Positions 3,035 to 62,373 of a DNA stretch of 64,000 bases are shown here, one piece after another. This DNA is from a virus: IMG/VR virus record IMGVR_UViG_3300021440_000015, positions 56,258 through 120,257 of that record, one strand, 5' to 3'. How positions within the stretch are numbered: position 1 is the stretch's first letter; every line of letters starts with the position of its first letter. The notes beneath the pieces were generated by a model. That model did not search any database and was not told the origin of the DNA. It saw nothing but the letters and a program-made list of their open reading frames with translations. Position numbers and translations under genes: made by a program.

Positions 3035-3734
3035 ACAAATTAAAACAGGTAGTGTTAACAATATGCTGACACGTCTCTTTATCGAGATGTTGAAAAACAT
3101 GGGTGTTGACAGTATCATGTACGAGAACAGAATAGACCAGTATATAACGAATGCAGGTCTTCCCAAAAACATGAAGGAACTCAGTTCTGTTCGTGGTAAT
3201 ATCAAAAAAGAACTTGCCAAGTCATCTATGTCTTGGAAAGTGTTTTTGAAATCTATGGTTTTTCTGGGTGTCAAACAGTTTAATCTGTCTGTTACTTATA
3301 AGGACATAAATGATGTAATTAAAAATATCGAACAGCAACATACTTTTGATTACAAAACCATTAACATGAAGTTGTTTGGCGGTACTGATAAAGAAAAAGA
3401 CGATGTTGGAGAAACAAACGTTCTACATAGCCTTTATCAAAAAATCCATCAGGACTTTGTTAATTCAGGTGTGACCGAACAGTCTATGGTCGTCAATTAT
3501 GCTAAGAAAACTATGCTTAATAAAGACGAACGTGACCTGTCGGCTATAAAAGGCAGCATCAAGAAAGAAATTTCTCGTGGTAATATGACTTGGAGAGTCT
3601 TTATCAAAGGACTTTGTTTCTTGGGGATAGAACATTACGTCATTGCTTTAGAAGTGATCAGGTTTGATAAAAGGGTGTTCCGAGTAGGTTTCCCTGTATC
3701 AATGACTGCCGCTGATATTGAAAATGACTACTGA
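2997..3734 (+). CDS. protein with internally duplicated domain (245 aa)
   Basis: Unknown function. I chose ATG 2997 (MSGINPFSLDL) over the TTG two codons earlier. The protein contains two copies of a domain of roughly 70 residues. The first has SVRGNIKKELAKSSMSWKVF then LKSMVFLGV. The second has AIKGSIKKEISRGNMTWRVF then IKGLCFLGI. The shared pattern is x(2)-G-x-IKKE-x(5)-M-[ST]-W-[KR]-VF-[LI]-K-x(3)-FLG[VI], so this is an ancient tandem duplication in one chain. It is followed after 9 bp by 3744-4286. Confidence 0.75.
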   Translation: MSGINPFSLDLNRQIKTGSVNNMLTRLFIEMLKNMGVDSIMYENRIDQYITNAGLPKNMKELSSVRGNIKKELAKSSMSWKVFLKSMVFLGVKQFNLSVTYKDINDVIKNIEQQHTFDYKTINMKLFGGTDKEKDDVGETNVLHSLYQKIHQDFVNSGVTEQSMVVNYAKKTMLNKDERDLSAIKGSIKKEISRGNMTWRVFIKGLCFLGIEHYVIALEVIRFDKRVFRVGFPVSMTAADIENDY

Positions 3735-15416: not shown

Positions 15417-17778
15417 ATGCAAACTGCTATGCTGCCATTTAACATAGACCTGTTAAACCTTTCTGACATAGACATCAGAACCATCAGACCTGTTAAGGTT
15501 CTAGACATAACCGATGGGCTGACCAAGAACTTTCATCCGGATGGTTTATTCAGCACCCAAACCTTTGGTATGGTGGGTGAAGAAAAACGAAATAGGATGT
15601 TCTCTTATATTAATCTGAATATAAAAGTGCTACACCCTATCATCTTTAAATCTTTATACGATCTAAAGTCTCTTTATGGAGATATCATGTCGTCTAAAGC
15701 ATACGCTATATTTGACCCAGAGTTGAAAGATTTTGTAAAATCTGATCAGATAGATGGTCAAACTGGTTTCGATTTCTTCATCAAACATCTACCAGAGCTT
15801 AAATTTGAACAAAACAGTTCTGTAAGAAGACAGTTTAATATCAAGCTAGTGGATAAGTACAGACAAAAAGCTCTTATAGATAAGTTTGTCGTAATGCCTG
15901 CTGGTTTAAGAGATTACGTTTTAGACGAGAATAATCAACCTAGTGAGGATGAAATAAATACACTTTACAGAAGAGTATTATCTTTATCTAGTATTATAGG
16001 TACCGTAAACTCACAGCTAAATGCTGAATACTTCAACAACATGCGGTTTCAGCTACAGCTTGCCTGTAATGAGATTTTTGAATACATAAAAAATCTTCTT
16101 GAGGGTAAAAGCAAACTCATACTTGGTAAATGGGCAGGTAGAAAAACCTTTCACTCCACCAGAAATGTTATTACGTCCTATATCAGCAAGAATACACAGC
16201 TATTTGGTCCTAGACATGTATCATCCACGCAAACTGTAGTAGGCCTGTACCAGTATTTAAGAGCTACTCTGCCTTTATCCATAAAGAATGTGAGGGACGG
16301 TTTTATAGGAAGTGTCTTTACAGGGCCGAACTCACCTATGATACTGGTGAATAAAAAGACGCTGAAAAAAGTAGTAGTTCCTATCAATCCTAAGGAATAT
16401 GACAAATGGATGACTAATGAAGGCTTGGAGAAAGTCTTTGCTACCTATGGACAAGAGAACCTCAGACACAGTTATGTGGAGATATCTGATCACTACGCAG
16501 GTTTAATTTTTAAAGGTAAGGACGGGACTTATAAAATCTTCCAGGACATAGATGAGTTACCCGAACGTTACAGTAGAGAAGATGTGACACCTCTGACTAT
16601 AACAGAACTCATTATGTTGAGTGTCTATGGAGATTCATCTGAAACACCTTGTTTCACAACAAGATATCCTATTACAGGATATGGTAGCATATATCCCAGT
16701 TATGTATATCTTAAAACCACAGTAGAATCTGACACAAGAACCCTGCTAGATGACAAATGGGAACCTACCGAATTTGCTTGTGCTGAGTTTCCAATATACG
16801 GAAATGGGTTTTATAATTCCTTTTCAGTAGCCTCTAAAAATTTATCAAGACTTGGTGCTGATAAAAAGGATAAAAAATGAGTTAAACGTATTCTCATTTT
16901 GTTATCCAATTGTCCTCTTAAATAGTAATATTTAAAGAGATTTTTCTTGAATTGCTGGAACATCCTAAAGTTAATCCACCACCGCTAGATGAAAATCAAA
17001 GCCAAGGTTTGAAAACGGATTAAATGAAACAATGGGTAATCAGCAGCTAAGACGCTAAAGTTGACTCTATAGTCAACCATGCGTAAAGTTCAACGACTAA
17101 CCCTTAAGCAAGGTGTAGGAGATAGTATCTCCGAAGTGGGAAACGCCCTACTGTTTATACAGAGGGTGAAGATATAGTCTGCTCCTTTGGGAAAGCCAAA
17201 GGCGGGTGTCTTAACACACCGGGTTACTTTATGATAGGTTTGAAACCGAACGACTGTAACTGGACAATAGGTTCGATAAGTAACATTGTCGCATACAGAA
17301 GAAATTCTGTAATGAAAACTTCTTGAATTGCTGGAACTCCCTTAGAGCCTAATCACCACTGCGAGGCGAAAGCTAAAGCCAAGGTTTGAAAAGATTAGGA
17401 TTGGGTTATCAGCAGCGAAGCACCGTATAGGTGAACGTTCAACGACCATCCCGTAAGGGAGTAGGATCTAGCAGATCCGAAGTGGGAAGCATCTTATCAG
17501 ATAAAGCTGAAGATGGTGATATGGTCTGTTCCTGTATGAAAGTACAGGCGGGTGTCTGAGCACACCGGGTAAAGAGTGTAGGTTTATATAACCGAGCGAC
17601 TTTACTGGACAATAAGGGTGATACAATGTCCTTAGTTTGCGTTATGTCTGAAGAAGCTAAAGCAGAAATCAGAAATAAGATAAACTCTAGAGATTTTTAC
17701 GTGGGTGTGAACAATAAAATGAACTTTAGTGGTTCTGATGATGTTCTTGACCTTACCTTAGCTAATATGACGGGCTAA
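15417..17778 (+). CDS. virion RNA polymerase beta' subunit, N-terminal part, split by two group I introns
   Basis: Exons are proposed at 15417-16862, 17272-17277 and 17617-17778 (537 aa in total). Start ATG 15417 has AAAGAGG upstream; the earlier in-frame ATG at 15393 lacks one. Exon 1 carries the beta' GK..GR block (LGKWAGRKTFHSTRNVITS). The exons join to read LGAD-FD-GDTMSLVCVMSEEAKAE, matching bacterial [22 protein letters not shown], so the metal-binding triad is rebuilt only after both introns are removed. Unspliced mRNA stops five codons into intron 1. The protein ends shortly after the active site, as in the phiKZ virion RNAP, whose other beta' part must lie outside this window. It is followed after 4 bp by the beta gene. 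Confidence 0.85.
16863..17271 (+). ncRNA. group I intron 1 in RNAP beta'
   Basis: About 409 nt without an ORF. Group I core elements are visible in order: P (AATTGCTGGAA), Q (AATCAGCAGC), R (GTTCAACGACTA) and S (GAAGATATAGTC). A long P1 extension is formed by GGATAA...TGAG with CTCA...TTATCC. P1 itself pairs GATAA across the 5' splice site with TTGTC, giving the expected U-G at the junction. The intron ends in G at 17271. Boundaries come from protein continuity plus P1 pairing. Confidence 0.85.
17272..17277 (+). other. six-nucleotide micro-exon (Phe-Asp)
   Basis: TTCGAT lies between the 3' end of intron 1 and the 5' end of intron 2. It restores frame and supplies Phe-Asp of the catalytic ADFDGD motif. 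Its 3' end pairs with intron 2 (CGATAA with TTGTCG). Confidence 0.8.
17278..17616 (+). ncRNA. group I intron 2 in RNAP beta'
   Basis: About 339 nt with the same P/Q/R/S elements (AATTGCTGGAA, ATCAGCAGC, GTTCAACGAC, GAAGATGGTGATATGGTCTG). P1 is six pairs, CGATAA with TTGTCG around GTAACA, with U-G at the splice site. It ends at G17616. Its 3' third is nearly identical to that of the beta intron. Confidence 0.85.
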
Positions 17779-17782
17779 AAAC

Positions 17783-20700
17783 ATGCAAAAACTTTTCAAT
17801 CTTTTCTATAAAGAAGTAGGCACAAGACGGATACAGAATCTTGCCAGTCCTAAATTAATAGACTTTATAAGCTTCCCAAGAAACTCTGTATATCACCATC
17901 ACACCAGAGATGATGGAAGAGAGTTAGATGTATCTAAATTGTATTTCAAAGGTTATAAAACAAAAATAGCCGTAGACTACATAACTGAATCTATTTTCAC
18001 AGACGGCGGTGTCAGAAAAGTTAACCTGAATATAAAGAATCTCATAAGAGACTTCTTTAATACTAATAAACAATTTCAATACAGACCTGATGCTTTATCC
18101 GTAGTTAAAGATTCCGGTACTTTAATAGTAGAAAATTATAACTATCTGAATGATAGTTATAAATACATAGAAACATCTCTCACCCCCTACTATAAATTTC
18201 TAAATCATTACAGAACCATTCTGTCTAACATGGCTCTCGCCATGGATAAAAACGACAGACAACATTTCTTTTTTGTAAACACACCCAGAGAGATACCTGC
18301 TTTAAGTTTTATAGTTCAATTTTCATCAAGCAAACCTTCGACAGGGATGCTTACAATTTTCAATAATGAGGAAAAGTTACTTATTCTAGAAATGTTTAAA
18401 TGGTTAAATACAGAGAAAGCTTCTGAAAGTATTTTCTCTGTATTTAAAAAATCACATCTTTCTAGAATTAACTTTGTTTTCTTCAGCAGAACAAACAAAG
18501 CTTCTATATTGAACTTAGGTTATTTACACGGTTGGGTCAAAGGCAATGACCTTAATACAAATTCAACCGATAAAGTTCAAGTAGAAGACAACGACCTTCA
18601 AAAATTATTTCTTAAGTTTCTTTTAAGTATTAATTTTGTCTCTGATGTTGAAGAGATTACAGAACACCCGACTGATCAAGACAACTTTACCTTAAAAACA
18701 AGATCTGATTCTGAACTAGGTGATGACTTTGATGAAAACTTTGAGATCAGCCCAGAGTTCACAACATTAAAAACCACACCTGTGATAGACCTTTCACCCA
18801 GTTCGATAAATACAAGTATCCCATCCTTGGATGAAATACCTGACGATTTAGACTCAGATATATCTACAGACGAAACTATTGCCGCCTTACTGAATCAAAT
18901 TGAACAAGATTTATCTGTCACAGAGAAGAAGCAGAAAATAACTCTTTCTAAAAAAGGGATTTCTATAGGTTCAGATGGTGATCTAGTTCAAACTAAAGTC
19001 ACTAAGGAAATGACAGAAGAGCAAATTACTTCTGAAGTTTTTGGTGATAAAACATATCGGGAAGGGTTGCTGTCAGCTATTGAAGCAGCAGCCGATACTG
19101 GACGATTGTCTGCCGCAGAGTATAGAAAATTTCTAACTGCTGTGAGTGACTTTGAAAATATGCCTGATCCCTATAAAACAGGCAAGGTTATTTCAGAAGT
19201 TAACAAGGTAACCGTTAACGATATTGTCATTAACGACTCTGAAAATGAAATTGTGACATCAGAGATGATGATAGACAAAACCATGGGTGAGTCATCTTTA
19301 CAAACTTTTGACAGTAAGTACATTAAAAATGTTTTGTCAAAAGACATGCTTATGATGGTGTCCAGCATTCAGAAAGCTGGTGTTGTAATAGCCAGTTATG
19401 AAATAGAAACTGAAAGAAGCATAGCTGGAACCTATCAAGTACATGAGATTCAGTTAAAACCAGTCGATGGTGCAGGTTCTACTCTTAGGTTTAGAGTTCC
19501 GGTTCCTGATGAAAATGGTGTTATGAAAGTTGGTGGTAGTCTCTATAGCTATAGAAAACAGATAGTAGATCTACCTGTCCGTAAGATAGATCCGGTAACA
19601 GTTGCTTTATCTAGCTATTACGGTAAGACCTTTGTAGCTGTGTCTGACAAAAAAGCCAATAGTTCTTATGACTGGTTGTTAAGAAACATATCTAAATTAA
19701 GTATTTTGGATAATCCGGTCATTACTGATTTGGGCCCCGCTGATGTTTTCAACAATTTATTCAAAGCTCCTTATCTTTATAGTTTCTTATCTAAAAACTA
19801 TAAAACTTTCAAAATAAAAGGTAATACTTTTGTTTTTGATGAAAGGGAAAGATCTATAATCTACCCAAATTTCTCAAAGATAGAGAAAAACGGTAGTGTG
19901 GTTTGTGGTTTCACAGAGACATCAGAACCTATAGTCATGTCAGAGACCGAAGAGTTTCTAATCTATAGAGCTGGCGGTTATGTCAGTCTCGGTAACATAG
20001 AAACTATGTTAGGCATAGACAAGACTAAGTCACCTGTAGATTTTACTGAACTAAGGGTCTTTGCTAAAACAGTTCCTGTGGGTGTGGTTCTTGGTTATTA
20101 TATCGGTTTTGGCAAACTTTTAAAATTGATCAAGGCTGAGTACAGAGCTGTAGAAGGTAGATCTCTTAAGAATTTACAAGCAGATGAATATGTTGTAGCA
20201 TTTTCTGATACTTCTTATATCTTTACAAGAAAACAAAGAGCTGTAAGTCTCATGGTTTCTGGTTTCCTTGAGTATGAGAAGGTAATAAAACAGTTTCCTG
20301 TAGAAACATTTAACGATAAAGATGTTTACTTCAATCTTTTTGACAGTAAATCTATGTCTGCTCTGTATATAAGAGAGTTGGACATATATCGTCAGTTGTT
20401 CATAGACGGCATAACTAAGACTATCTTAGAACAAATGGGTCTGCCTGTGACTTTTGAAGGTCTTTTAGTAAAGTCTACTGAAATGCTTTGTGAATATGGT
20501 TACCCTGATACCCAGGATATGAATCACATGCGCATCAGAGGTTACGAAAGAATACCAGGTATCGTATACAGTCAATTGGCTACTGCTATACGTCAGTACA
20601 GAACAAAGAATATCTCAGGCAGATCCAAGATAGAGATGTCGCCTTTTGCTGTATGGTCTACAATAATGAAAGACCCTGCTATTAAGTTAGTGGAAGATAT

Positions 20701-23460
20701 TAACCCTATCCAGAACATGAAAGAATCTGAGATAGTCACATACGTAGGTGAAGGCGGAAGAGGAAAAGAATCTATGAACAAAGCCACTAGGGCTTTTCAT
20801 GTTTCTAATGTGGGTGTGGTATCTGAAGCCTCTGTAGATAGTGGTGACGTAGGTATAAACTTTTATCTTTCATCTAACCCTAATTTTAAGGACATGCGAG
20901 GCATAGTTAAATCTGACAAGAAGATAACTCCTACGTCTATGGTAAGTACAGCCACCATGCTTGCACCAGGTAGTAGTAAAGATGATTAAATATATACAGT
21001 GAGGAACTGTATATGATTGAATGTAATACACCTAATTTTAAGATTCCAAAAGGTTACTCTAAATACAGAGTCTCGCCAGATGGAAAAGTTTTTTCGTTTC
21101 ATAAAGAAAAGTTTTTAAAAGGGTCTATAAATCCAGCAGGTTACACCAATATTAGATTAACATCCGATAATGGTGTAACATTAACTTGGGGATTGCATAG
21201 ACTGATAGCGTTTTGTTTTATTTGTAGTGATTATGAAAAGTTTGGTGAGTTGTATGTAAACCATAAGGACGGTAATAAACACAACAACGCACTTGAAAAT
21301 CTTGAAATCGTAACACCTAAACAGAACGTTGAACACGCAGGTCTTAACAACTTAAGTAGAAAGTGTTTACCTATTTTGGTAAGAGATGTTAAAAGTGGTT
21401 TGATATCGGAATACCCTAGCATCATTGAATGTTCCAAACATCTTGGTGTTAGTAAGGATACTGTTTTATACAGATTAAGATATCTAGGTAAGAGATTATC
21501 GCCATCTGGTCAACAATTCAAACTGAAGAAAGATAAAACACCTTGGGTTGAAATAAAAGATTTAGAAGAAGCGAAAAAACTTTACGGTAGGAACAAAAGC
21601 GTTGCGGTGAGAACATATCCAGCTATTGAAAGAATCACTATCTACAGTAGTTGTAATGAAGTATCGTCAAAATTAGGCTTAAGCGCAGGTTATGTTTCTC
21701 AGTTGTTTTACAACAAAGATCAGCCGGTTATAGATAATTTTATTCAGCTTAAACCTAATGATAATTCGATACCTTGGGTAACACACACAGATTTCATTGA
21801 AAGTTATGAAAATTTCACAGGGTGTAAAGTCATAACTGTTTGGAACTGTTTGACAGACGAAAGAAAAATATATAAGTCTGTCACAAGTTGCGCTAGTGAT
21901 AATGGTATTAAAATAACTACCTTACATTGGCGTTTAAACCAAGAAGCAAAGGTTCACCGTGACGGTAGAAAGTATGTGTATTACAGTCAGTTAAGTCCTT
22001 TGGAAAAGAAACTTTTCAAAGAATCTCTTTGAATTGCTGGGAACTCTTGTTAGATCACTGAACCACTGCGAGGCGAAAGCCAAAGCCAAGGTTTGAAAAT
22101 CAGTGAGTAGAGACAATCAGCAGCTAAGACGCTAAAGTTGATTCTGATCAACCATGCGTAAAGTTCAACGACTAAGGTTTTATCAACCTGTAGGGTACCT
22201 AGCGGTATTCGAAGCGGAGAGCACCCTACTGTATACAGAGGGTGAAGATATAGTCTGTTCCTGTATGAGAATATAGGCGGGTGTCTGAGCACACCGGGTA
22301 AAGAGGGTAAGCTGTGAAGCTGAGCGACTTTACTGGACAGTAAGGGAAAACGCGTCAACTTTGTCCAAATACAGATGTCTCATTTAATCGCGTGTAAAGA
22401 TTATCATCAACCTATCGTAAGAACAGGTTATGAGTATGTAGTACCTAATAGAACATCTGAAATATTTGCCTATAATGCCAAAGACGACGGTGAGGTTATC
22501 TCATTGGCTAAAACTGGTTTGATCGTCAAGTATAAAAACGGCGAGCAAAAAGGCATACAGCTTGGTCGTATTTACGGAAAAGCTGAAGGTAGTGTATACC
22601 CACATGACATTGTTTCTAGTGTTAAACTCGGTGATAAGTTTATCAAAGGTGATAACATAGCTTATAATACAGGTTTCTTTGAGAAAGATTTACTTGATCC
22701 AAAAAGAGTAGTTATGAAAAACTCTATGACGATCAAAGTAGCTCTGATGGAAACCAACCAGACTCACGAAGATAGTTGCTCTATTTCTAATAGAGTGTCT
22801 TTAATGTCTAGTGCCAAAACCACAAAAATGAAATCGGTCACTGTTTCCTTTAAACAAAACTTGCACAATGTTGCATCTTTTGGACAAAGAATAAAACCGA
22901 ATGATATTTTGATGGTAATGGAAGATGAAATTACTTCCACAGGTCATTTTGATGAAGAATCACTTTCACTATTAGCCGACTTATCTAAACAGTCTATTAA
23001 GTCTAAATACGACGGGGTTTTAGATAGAATAGAAGTTTACTATCACGGTAGTAAAGAAGATATGAGTCCTTCTTTAAGAGCACTTGCTGATAAAAGTGAT
23101 CAGGTATTAGAAACTATATGTAAATCGACTAACTCGCCTGTAGTCACGGGTGAAGTTAACGATGAATACAGAGTAGCTGGTTCTCGTCTGAGTTTAGACA
23201 AAGCTGAGATAAAACTTTATATAACCATGGATACAATCAGCGGTACAGGTGATAAACTTGTGTTCGCTAATCAAATGAAGAGTGTGGTGGGTGAGGTAAT
23301 GGATTATGATGTAAAGACAGAATCCGGTGAGAGAGTAGATGCCATATTTGGTTTTCGCTCAATCATGGCTCGTGTAGTGACATCACCTATAATCATAGGT
23401 ACCACAACCACCTTACTTAAAAAAGTTGCTGAAAAAGCTGTCAAAGTTTACAAAGGTTAA
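17783..23460 (+). CDS. virion RNA polymerase beta subunit, main part, split by a group I intron
   Basis: Exons 17783-20986 and 22345-23460 give 1439 aa. The region near residue 935-1040 (PGIVYSQLATAIRQYRTKNI through VSEASVDSGDVGINFYLSSNP) corresponds to the bacterial beta block ending in CPIETPEGPNIGLI. Exon 2 opens with KRVNFVQIQMSH (bacterial NRALMGANMQRQ), then holds ETNQTHEDSCSISNRVS (bacterial NFEDSILVSERV) and ISGTGDKLVFANQMKSVVGEV (bacterial PGDKMAGRHGNKGVI). The chain stops before the beta C-terminal clamp, which I find separately at 675-1340. It carries a large acidic insertion (residues about 290-380) not present in bacterial beta. Without splicing, translation would end at 20989, three bases past the exon. 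Confidence 0.9.
20987..22344 (+). ncRNA. group I intron 3 in RNAP beta, carrying an HNH endonuclease
   Basis: The 1358-nt intron has its core at the 3' side (22030-22344): P at TTGAATTGCTGGG, Q at AATCAGCAGC, R at GTTCAACGACTAA, S at GAAGATATAGTCTG, ending CAGTAAG. An ATATACAG/CTGTATAT stem at 20992-21014 near the 5' end probably extends P1. The endonuclease ORF sits upstream of the core and its stop overlaps element P. Protein continuity (SSKDD|GKRVNF) fixes the boundaries. Confidence 0.85.
21013..22032 (+). CDS. intron-encoded HNH homing endonuclease (339 aa)
   Basis: NUMOD/HNH-type homing endonuclease. There is a NUMOD4-like start (YRVSPDGKVFSF), an HNH_3 core at about residues 60-115 (LHRLIAFCFI, then NHKDGNKHNNALENLEIVTPKQN) and at least three NUMOD1-like DNA-binding repeats (YPSIIECSKHLGVSKDT, CNEVSSKLGLSAGYVSQLF, KSVTSCASDNGIKITTLHW). 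It lies wholly inside the RNAP beta intron and would spread that intron by cutting intronless beta alleles. The start ATG falls in the P1 extension stem, which may limit translation until the RNA refolds. Confidence 0.9.
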   Translation: MIECNTPNFKIPKGYSKYRVSPDGKVFSFHKEKFLKGSINPAGYTNIRLTSDNGVTLTWGLHRLIAFCFICSDYEKFGELYVNHKDGNKHNNALENLEIVTPKQNVEHAGLNNLSRKCLPILVRDVKSGLISEYPSIIECSKHLGVSKDTVLYRLRYLGKRLSPSGQQFKLKKDKTPWVEIKDLEEAKKLYGRNKSVAVRTYPAIERITIYSSCNEVSSKLGLSAGYVSQLFYNKDQPVIDNFIQLKPNDNSIPWVTHTDFIESYENFTGCKVITVWNCLTDERKIYKSVTSCASDNGIKITTLHWRLNQEAKVHRDGRKYVYYSQLSPLEKKLFKESL

Positions 23461-61728: not shown

Positions 61729-62241
61729 ATGACTAAAAACGCAAACACGATAATAAATCTTGAGGAACCTTTTTCATATCTTTGGAAAAGAGGATATCTG
61801 CAAACACACCCATCTGGCCGAAAATACGTATGTCTTTTTAACAACAATAGCTGTAGAACATTGATAAGCTATGCCCGTTATCTAATGTCTGTTAAATTAG
61901 GCTGTTTGATACACAAAGATTTGACTGTGGATCACATCAATAACGACAAAACAGATGATCGAGTAGAAAATCTTCAATTGCTGTCTTTGTCTGAAAATAT
62001 AAACAAGGAAGCTAAAAGATACATAGACGAAGTACAGATAAGACATAATTTAAAATGTCAAGTTTGCGATAGAAACTTCGTGATAACAGACAGACTTTAT
62101 AAAATGAAACGTAAACAAACAGATAAAACTTTTTGTAGTAATTCATGTTCAACAAAATTTCACAAAACAAAAAAAAGGATTGTCATAGGTTGTCTGTTCG
62201 ATTCACACCCGTGGCACCAATCCTTTTCCAGAATAATTTAG
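61729..62241 (+). CDS. free-standing HNH homing endonuclease (170 aa)
   Basis: HNH core VDHINNDKTDDRVENLQLLS at residues about 63-82, preceded by a typical RTLISYARYLMSVKLG block. The C-terminus has a zinc-finger-like Cys set (CQVCDRNF, CSNSCSTKFHK). The insert is AT-rich. Flanking sequence shows tRNA-like pieces: GCCGGATTAGCTCAGG at 61682-61697 and TTCGATTCACACCCGTGGCACCA at 62201-62223, suggesting that it invaded a tRNA gene. No RNA splice core is evident. Confidence 0.85.
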   Translation: MTKNANTIINLEEPFSYLWKRGYLQTHPSGRKYVCLFNNNSCRTLISYARYLMSVKLGCLIHKDLTVDHINNDKTDDRVENLQLLSLSENINKEAKRYIDEVQIRHNLKCQVCDRNFVITDRLYKMKRKQTDKTFCSNSCSTKFHKTKKRIVIGCLFDSHPWHQSFSRII

Positions 62242-62284: not shown

Positions 62285-62373
62285 ACCAGGATGCCCAAAT
62301 AGGTAAAGGGAACGGATTTAAAATCCGTCGACTGGAGACGGTCTTACGGGTTCGAGTCCCGTTCCTGGTACCA
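62285..62373 (+). tRNA. tRNA-Leu (UAA anticodon)
   Basis: Full cloverleaf: acceptor ACCAGGA/TCCTGGT, anticodon stem ACGGA/TCCGT with loop TTTAAAA (anticodon TAA), long variable arm (CGACTGGAGACGGTC) typical of leucine, T-arm ACGGGTTCGAGTCCCGT and an encoded CCA. Fits the AT-rich codon use of the phage. Confidence 0.9.

Follow-up and report, generated by a model that had tools for sequence, protein, structure and literature searches.

How can a working RNA polymerase be made from a gene whose catalytic motif is broken twice, with six nucleotides left between the breaks? This question is raised by a stretch of 64 kb (here called the window) that forms the right-hand part of a 120,257-bp IMG/VR virus record of an uncultured giant phage. 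At 15417-23460 the window harbors the genes for the N-terminal part of β′ and for β of the virion RNA polymerase (vRNAP) of a phiKZ-like jumbo phage. A first-pass annotation had placed two group I introns at 16857-17622, which would put each catalytic Asp of β′ on an exon of its own and would restore the motif ADFDGD via an exon consisting of nothing but TTCGAT (Phe-Asp). The analysis described here upholds this partition and makes it very likely that the β′ gene was invaded by two group I ribozymes six nucleotides apart within the ADFDGD codons, their splicing yielding LGAD-FD-GDTMS.

Reading frame of the interrupted β′ gene

The β′ homologue of phiKZ is PHIKZ180, and the interrupted gene belongs to this gp180 family as judged from its match to phrog_2986 (E 7e-167) and from the DFDGD triad, which once spliced aligns to homologues. 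Exon 1 ends with GGT GCT GAT at 16862, and exon 3 starts with GGT GAT at 17617 and terminates at a stop codon at 17776-17778 (Table 1). Without splicing, the β′ frame runs past 16862 into a stop within six codons (..LGADKKDKK, then stop), and keeping either intron 1 or intron 2 leads to early stops as well. By joining position 16862 to 17272-17277 and these to 17617, all three exon frames stay open and LGADFDGDTMS is encoded. The spliced product aligns gap-free with LGADFDGDT of FLC9, LGADFDGDM of BONAISHI and sm033, LGGDYDGDT of Proteus phage 10 and SA002, and others; in eight intronless phage homologues the same columns read LGADFDGD, LGGDYDGD or LTADFDGD, so that the proposed restoration of the motif is matched residue for residue. 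A sequence search of the PDB returned no solved relative.

Table 1. Features of the vRNAP β′ and β genes in the window.
Feature	Position	Strand	Evidence or remark
Exon 1, vRNAP β′ N-part	15417..16862	+	ends ..SRLGAD, first catalytic Asp; phrog_2986 E 7e-167, homologue alignment
P1 5′ strand, intron 1 (exon GAU + intron AA)	16860..16864	+	pairs with 16910-16914
Group I intron 1, 409 nt	16863..17271	+	RF00028, 78.1 bits; boundaries from homologues and P1
P1 3′ strand/internal guide, intron 1 (UUGUC)	16910..16914	+	G16912-U16862 is the U-G pair
Exon 2, six nt, TTCGAT, Phe-Asp, second catalytic Asp	17272..17277	+	identical in L006, L007, L008
P1 5′ strand, intron 2 (exon CGAU + intron AA)	17274..17279	+	pairs with 17286-17291
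Group I intron 2, 339 nt	17278..17616	+	RF00028, 79.9 bits
P1 3′ strand/internal guide, intron 2 (UUGUCG)	17286..17291	+	G17288-U17277 is the U-G pair
Exon 3, GDTMSLVC..LANMTG stop, third catalytic Asp	17617..17778	+	homologue alignment
Exon 1, vRNAP β gene (phiKZ gp178 family)	17783..20986	+	ends ..SSKDD; phrog_3148 E 2e-266
Group I intron 3, after two consecutive Asp codons	20987..22344	+	RF00028 at 21972-22277, 87.6 bits
HNH/NUMOD4 homing-endonuclease ORF inside intron 3	21013..22032	+	Pfam and PHROGs
Exon 2, vRNAP β gene, in frame from GKRVNFVQ	22345..23460	+	phrog_3148

Besides this six-nucleotide partition no other splice boundaries were found that restore ADFDGD, place a U before each 5′ site and end each intron with a G. 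An assembly artefact or chance is very unlikely, the layout recurring in independent contigs (three distinct sequences). Since the catalytic motif itself is interrupted, a working polymerase would be obtained only if both predicted introns are removed exactly.

Ribozyme cores, P1 helices and the fate of the six-nucleotide exon

Both introns match the Rfam group I model RF00028 over its whole length, intron 1 at 16882-17201 (78.1 bits, E 4e-18) and intron 2 at 17268-17548 (79.9 bits, E 1e-18), at a threshold of 50 bits. They contain the conserved catalytic core P3-P9 and end in the terminal guanosine (ωG), intron 1 with ..AATAGG and intron 2 with ..AATAAG. The U-G pairs expected by the first-pass annotation in P1 at the 5′ splice sites are present in both cases (GAU/GUC and CGAU/GUCG, respectively), and the junctions folded alone give exactly the predicted helices, which are GAUAA/UUGUC, lengthened by a long extension, in intron 1 (shuffle z -3.9) and CGAUAA/UUGUCG in intron 2 (shuffle z -2.2). 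As an automatic P1 search picks wrong guides in long ORF-bearing introns, only guides adjoining P2 and the core were used. For intron 1 no convincing P10 was recognized by eye. Introns 1 and 2 are devoid of ORFs of at least 60 amino acids and hence of an intron-encoded homing endonuclease. Cores, guides and relatives together identify group I introns for which guanosine-dependent self-splicing is predicted, and we infer that both are spliced in the cell.

In the proposed mechanism each guide would pair with the GAU at the end of its upstream exon, that is GCUGAU for intron 1 and UUCGAU for intron 2, and each ribozyme, acting on its own P1, would cut after this U, join the next exon at the terminal G and leave. 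The tiny exon would be used twice, as 3′ exon for intron 1 and as 5′ exon for intron 2, TTCGAT serving at once as two codons and as target of the second guide. Guide 1 pairs with just three nucleotides of exon 1, and guide 2 is able to pair with exon 1 too (GCUGAU, 4 bp, weaker), therefore skipping of the tiny exon is physically possible, and it stays in frame. If splicing mainly linked the 5′ site of exon 1 to the 3′ site of intron 2, the main protein would read LGADGDTMS. Such a product would lack an essential Asp, whereas D[F/Y/H]DGD is kept in 189 of 189 uninterrupted loci of the survey described below, a pattern which the search itself required, the remaining loci being accounted for as interrupted or truncated. 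Moreover, TTCGAT is conserved while the adjoining exons are saturated at synonymous sites, and TTCGAT gives intron 2 the more stable P1, guide 2 pairing about 1.5 kcal/mol better with UUCGAU than with GCUGAU, where a U-G takes the place of a C-G pair. Predominant joint excision is thus highly improbable, and retention of the TTCGAT exon in the mature RNA is strongly implied by the homologues. With both introns removed separately, skipping would be kept low by the one stronger P1 pair and by intron 1, whose long P1 extension would hold exon 1 in place.

In relatives of these phages a protein nucleus may keep transcription and translation apart. A chimallin gene is present in the records of the relatives G001 and G003 (E 1e-21 to 1e-23) and was not found in the source record, itself incomplete at 120 kb. 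As the relatives' records encode this chimallin-like protein, the phages may be nucleus-forming, and splicing may then be finished ahead of translation.

Conservation and spread of the intron-exon-intron block

A scan with the exon 1 protein brought up close relatives (80-81% identical) in three contigs (L006, L007 and L008), all of which contain both introns and the same TTCGAT. Including the window the layout is found in four contigs, which correspond to three distinct sequences as L007 and L008 are near-identical and represent one lineage. In L006 the introns differ in length from those of the window (526 and 364 nt), which means that the layout has existed long enough for its introns to diverge. 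The exons are under purifying selection: compared to the L007/G003 lineage, exon 1 shows a dS of 1.86 and a dN of 0.14, the exons being saturated at synonymous sites. These observations also bear on the possibility that the locus is a decayed copy whose introns do not splice, another polymerase gene doing the work. The incompleteness of the source contig (120 kb) leaves room for such a gene, and splicing is predicted here from DNA; against this stand three exons with open frames and dN/dS far below 1, ribozyme cores that are intact and an arrangement shared by three distinct sequences, which render a decayed copy very improbable.

The introns differ far less than the exons which they separate. 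Versus the L007/G003 lineage intron 1 is 96.1% and intron 2 97.6% identical and TTCGAT is conserved in 6/6 positions, while the flanking exons are 77-78% identical in DNA, with a sharp change at the intron edges. This pattern shows that two diverged lineages obtained the whole intron-exon-intron block from a recent common source; the block has probably spread recently as one unit, introns 1 and 2 presumably having been transferred in a single tract that included the six-nucleotide exon, as judged from one lineage represented by two contigs. The near-identical introns may also stem from recombination by other routes. Lacking an endonuclease, introns 1 and 2 would need help in trans or plain recombination in order to move. 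The source record contains one HNH ORF in intron 3 and one further match near 61.9 kb of the window, where an HNH_3 match at ~61915-61998 is located in a 183-aa frame near a tRNA gene at 62285 and possibly represents a free-standing homing endonuclease. That the two endonuclease-free introns and the exon form a composite mobile unit, which would spread between diverged phages carrying two active-site codons and whose parts could be retained or lost only jointly, is a tentative proposal that we rate slightly below an even chance. Near-identical introns next to saturated exons provide a natural experiment on the movement of endonuclease-free introns.

Among introns 1 to 3 only intron 3, in the β gene, encodes a homing endonuclease. 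Compared to G003 this intron is 97.4% and its HNH ORF 98.5% identical vs 75-76% for the β exons, suggesting a recent horizontal spread of intron 3 as well as of the intron 1/2 block. Two further group I introns of the same genome are located in a thymidylate synthase gene (G000:C1 6778-7068, plus strand) and in an apparent replicative helicase gene (G000:C1 10262-10563, minus strand).

Active-site codons as insertion sites, and comparison with known systems

Among 221 β′ loci fetched for the survey, a redundant set, 189 are uninterrupted at the motif, of which 119 differ in their upstream sequence. Interruptions are seen in about 17 distinct loci besides the window, roughly one eighth of the surveyed genes; this fraction is approximate and not an unbiased rate, as the query alignments included interrupted genes. 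The interruptions fall on six adjacent positions of the vRNAP β′ motif, and the DFDGD motif is an intron hot spot. Site A, after GAD, is used in L020, L058, L065, L114, L123, L128, L135, L168, L217, L076 and others, and L070 and L139 are interrupted one or two nucleotides further on. Site B, after FD, is used in Pseudomonas phage EL (SDHD^GDQL), the position after FDG in Aeromonas phage PS1 (FDG^DQ) and site C, after GD, in L023. The guide tracks the insertion site in these phages, with GACU/GGUC one nucleotide past site A (L070) and GGAGAU/GUCUCC at site C (L023). In the interrupted loci L076 and L169 a group I intron was not confirmed at the Rfam gathering threshold; the PS1 insert of ~250 nt between FDG and DQ (L307, ~3224-3474) has no Rfam match and might be a diverged intron or one of another type. 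A pattern match in L098 turned out to be a chance match in an unrelated gene. Among cultured phages, site-A introns occur for instance in OMKO1 (88.4 bits), Vibrio Yong MS32 and Vibrio phage 2 TSL-2019. In the records of OMKO1 (L305), Vibrio Yong MS32 (L306), EL (L242) and Vibrio phage 2 TSL-2019 (L241) vRNAP β′ is annotated as truncated or split, which is attributable to an unannotated group I intron in DFDGD.

A second micro-exon is found in L023, a contig unrelated to the window, where introns at sites A and C surround the 12-nt exon TTCGACGGAGAT (FDGD), the second intron having a 6-bp P1. Micro-exons in the vRNAP motif have thus arisen at least twice. In the intron tree the two L023 introns are sisters (support 1.0) and the two of the window are not; the two micro-exons have perhaps originated by different routes. 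For the window a tandem duplication of one intron, instead of two invasions, would be in line with this precedent, with cores that are ~70% identical and with the UUGUC common to both guides. Intron 1, however, groups with the site-A introns of L114 and L058 (support 0.986) and intron 2 is placed near the nvRNAP, helicase and L020 introns, in a tree that is short, weakly supported in places and omits the two L006 introns (strict anchor). A duplication is accordingly the less probable origin, although a real contender, and two separate invasions are preferred.

In nvRNAP β′ of the relatives G001 and G003 tandem introns are inserted in NADFDG. The G001 gene (L273 3064-4570, equivalent to G001:C1 79063-80569) contains four consecutive group I introns and, between introns, exons of 12 nt, CCAAATGCTGAT (PNAD), and 9 nt, TTTGATGGT (FDG), while in G003 the exon between the tandem introns comprises 21 nt. 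Guide pairing is GAUGGU/GCCAUC in L273 vs GACGGU/GCCGUC in L274. A third catalytic Asp codon was not found after the FDG intron at ~4570 of L273 and ~2790 of L274 (minus strand); the sequences at this point are CTAG^AGA GAG TTA (G001) and CTAG^AGT GAG GTA (G003). The jumbo-phage RNA polymerase active site is hence an intron hot spot in which micro-exons emerged at least twice in vRNAP (6 and 12 nt) and apparently again in nvRNAP.

Introns in virion RNA polymerase genes have a precedent in PhiPA3, where a homing group I intron of gp210 follows two conserved Asp of vRNAP β (PMC11620839). Intron 3 of the window, following ..KDD, fits this described site, and in both phages a group I intron borders on Asp codons that are conserved in this polymerase (PMC11620839). 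In PhiPA3 this is a single HNH-bearing intron in β, whereas introns 1 and 2 of the window reside in β′, encode no nuclease and leave a 6-nt exon.

The first-pass annotation had called an exon of this size between two group I introns exceptional, a term that calls for qualification in view of the mitochondrial exons mentioned below. Exon skipping by group I introns is on record in phages. Staphylococcus phage Twort orf142, a tail tube gene, likewise contains consecutive group I introns, three in number, with exon skipping and small internal exons, reconstructed here as 41 and 23 nt, whereas exon 2 of the window lies in an enzyme active site. In Bacillus phage phiNIT1 nrdE a small exon between two group I introns was found by cDNA reads (PMC11878797); compared to the intronless phage Grass it measures ~66 nt as opposed to 6 nt in the window. 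Of the phage cases measured for comparison, Twort has the smallest internal exon, with 23 nt. The literature searched, with most subscription papers outside its reach, contains neither introns in the β′ DFDGD motif nor a phage micro-exon of so few nucleotides. Provided that the two introns splice as predicted, no smaller internal exon than TTCGAT was found between group I introns of a bacterial virus, and its 6-nt spacing would offer a sharp test of site choice by two neighboring ribozymes.

In mitochondrial genes exons of less than about four codons "occur regularly" (PMC10352661), and the nearest precedent is placozoan cox1, which contains a 1-nt exon between two group IB introns, supported by RNA-seq (PMC5436844). 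As in the window, a tiny exon is flanked there by two group I introns, within a catalytically needed codon (PMC5436844). The placozoan case concerns a single nucleotide in an animal mitochondrion, that of the window six nucleotides of a phage gene, read from DNA, which specify two active-site codons of an RNA polymerase.
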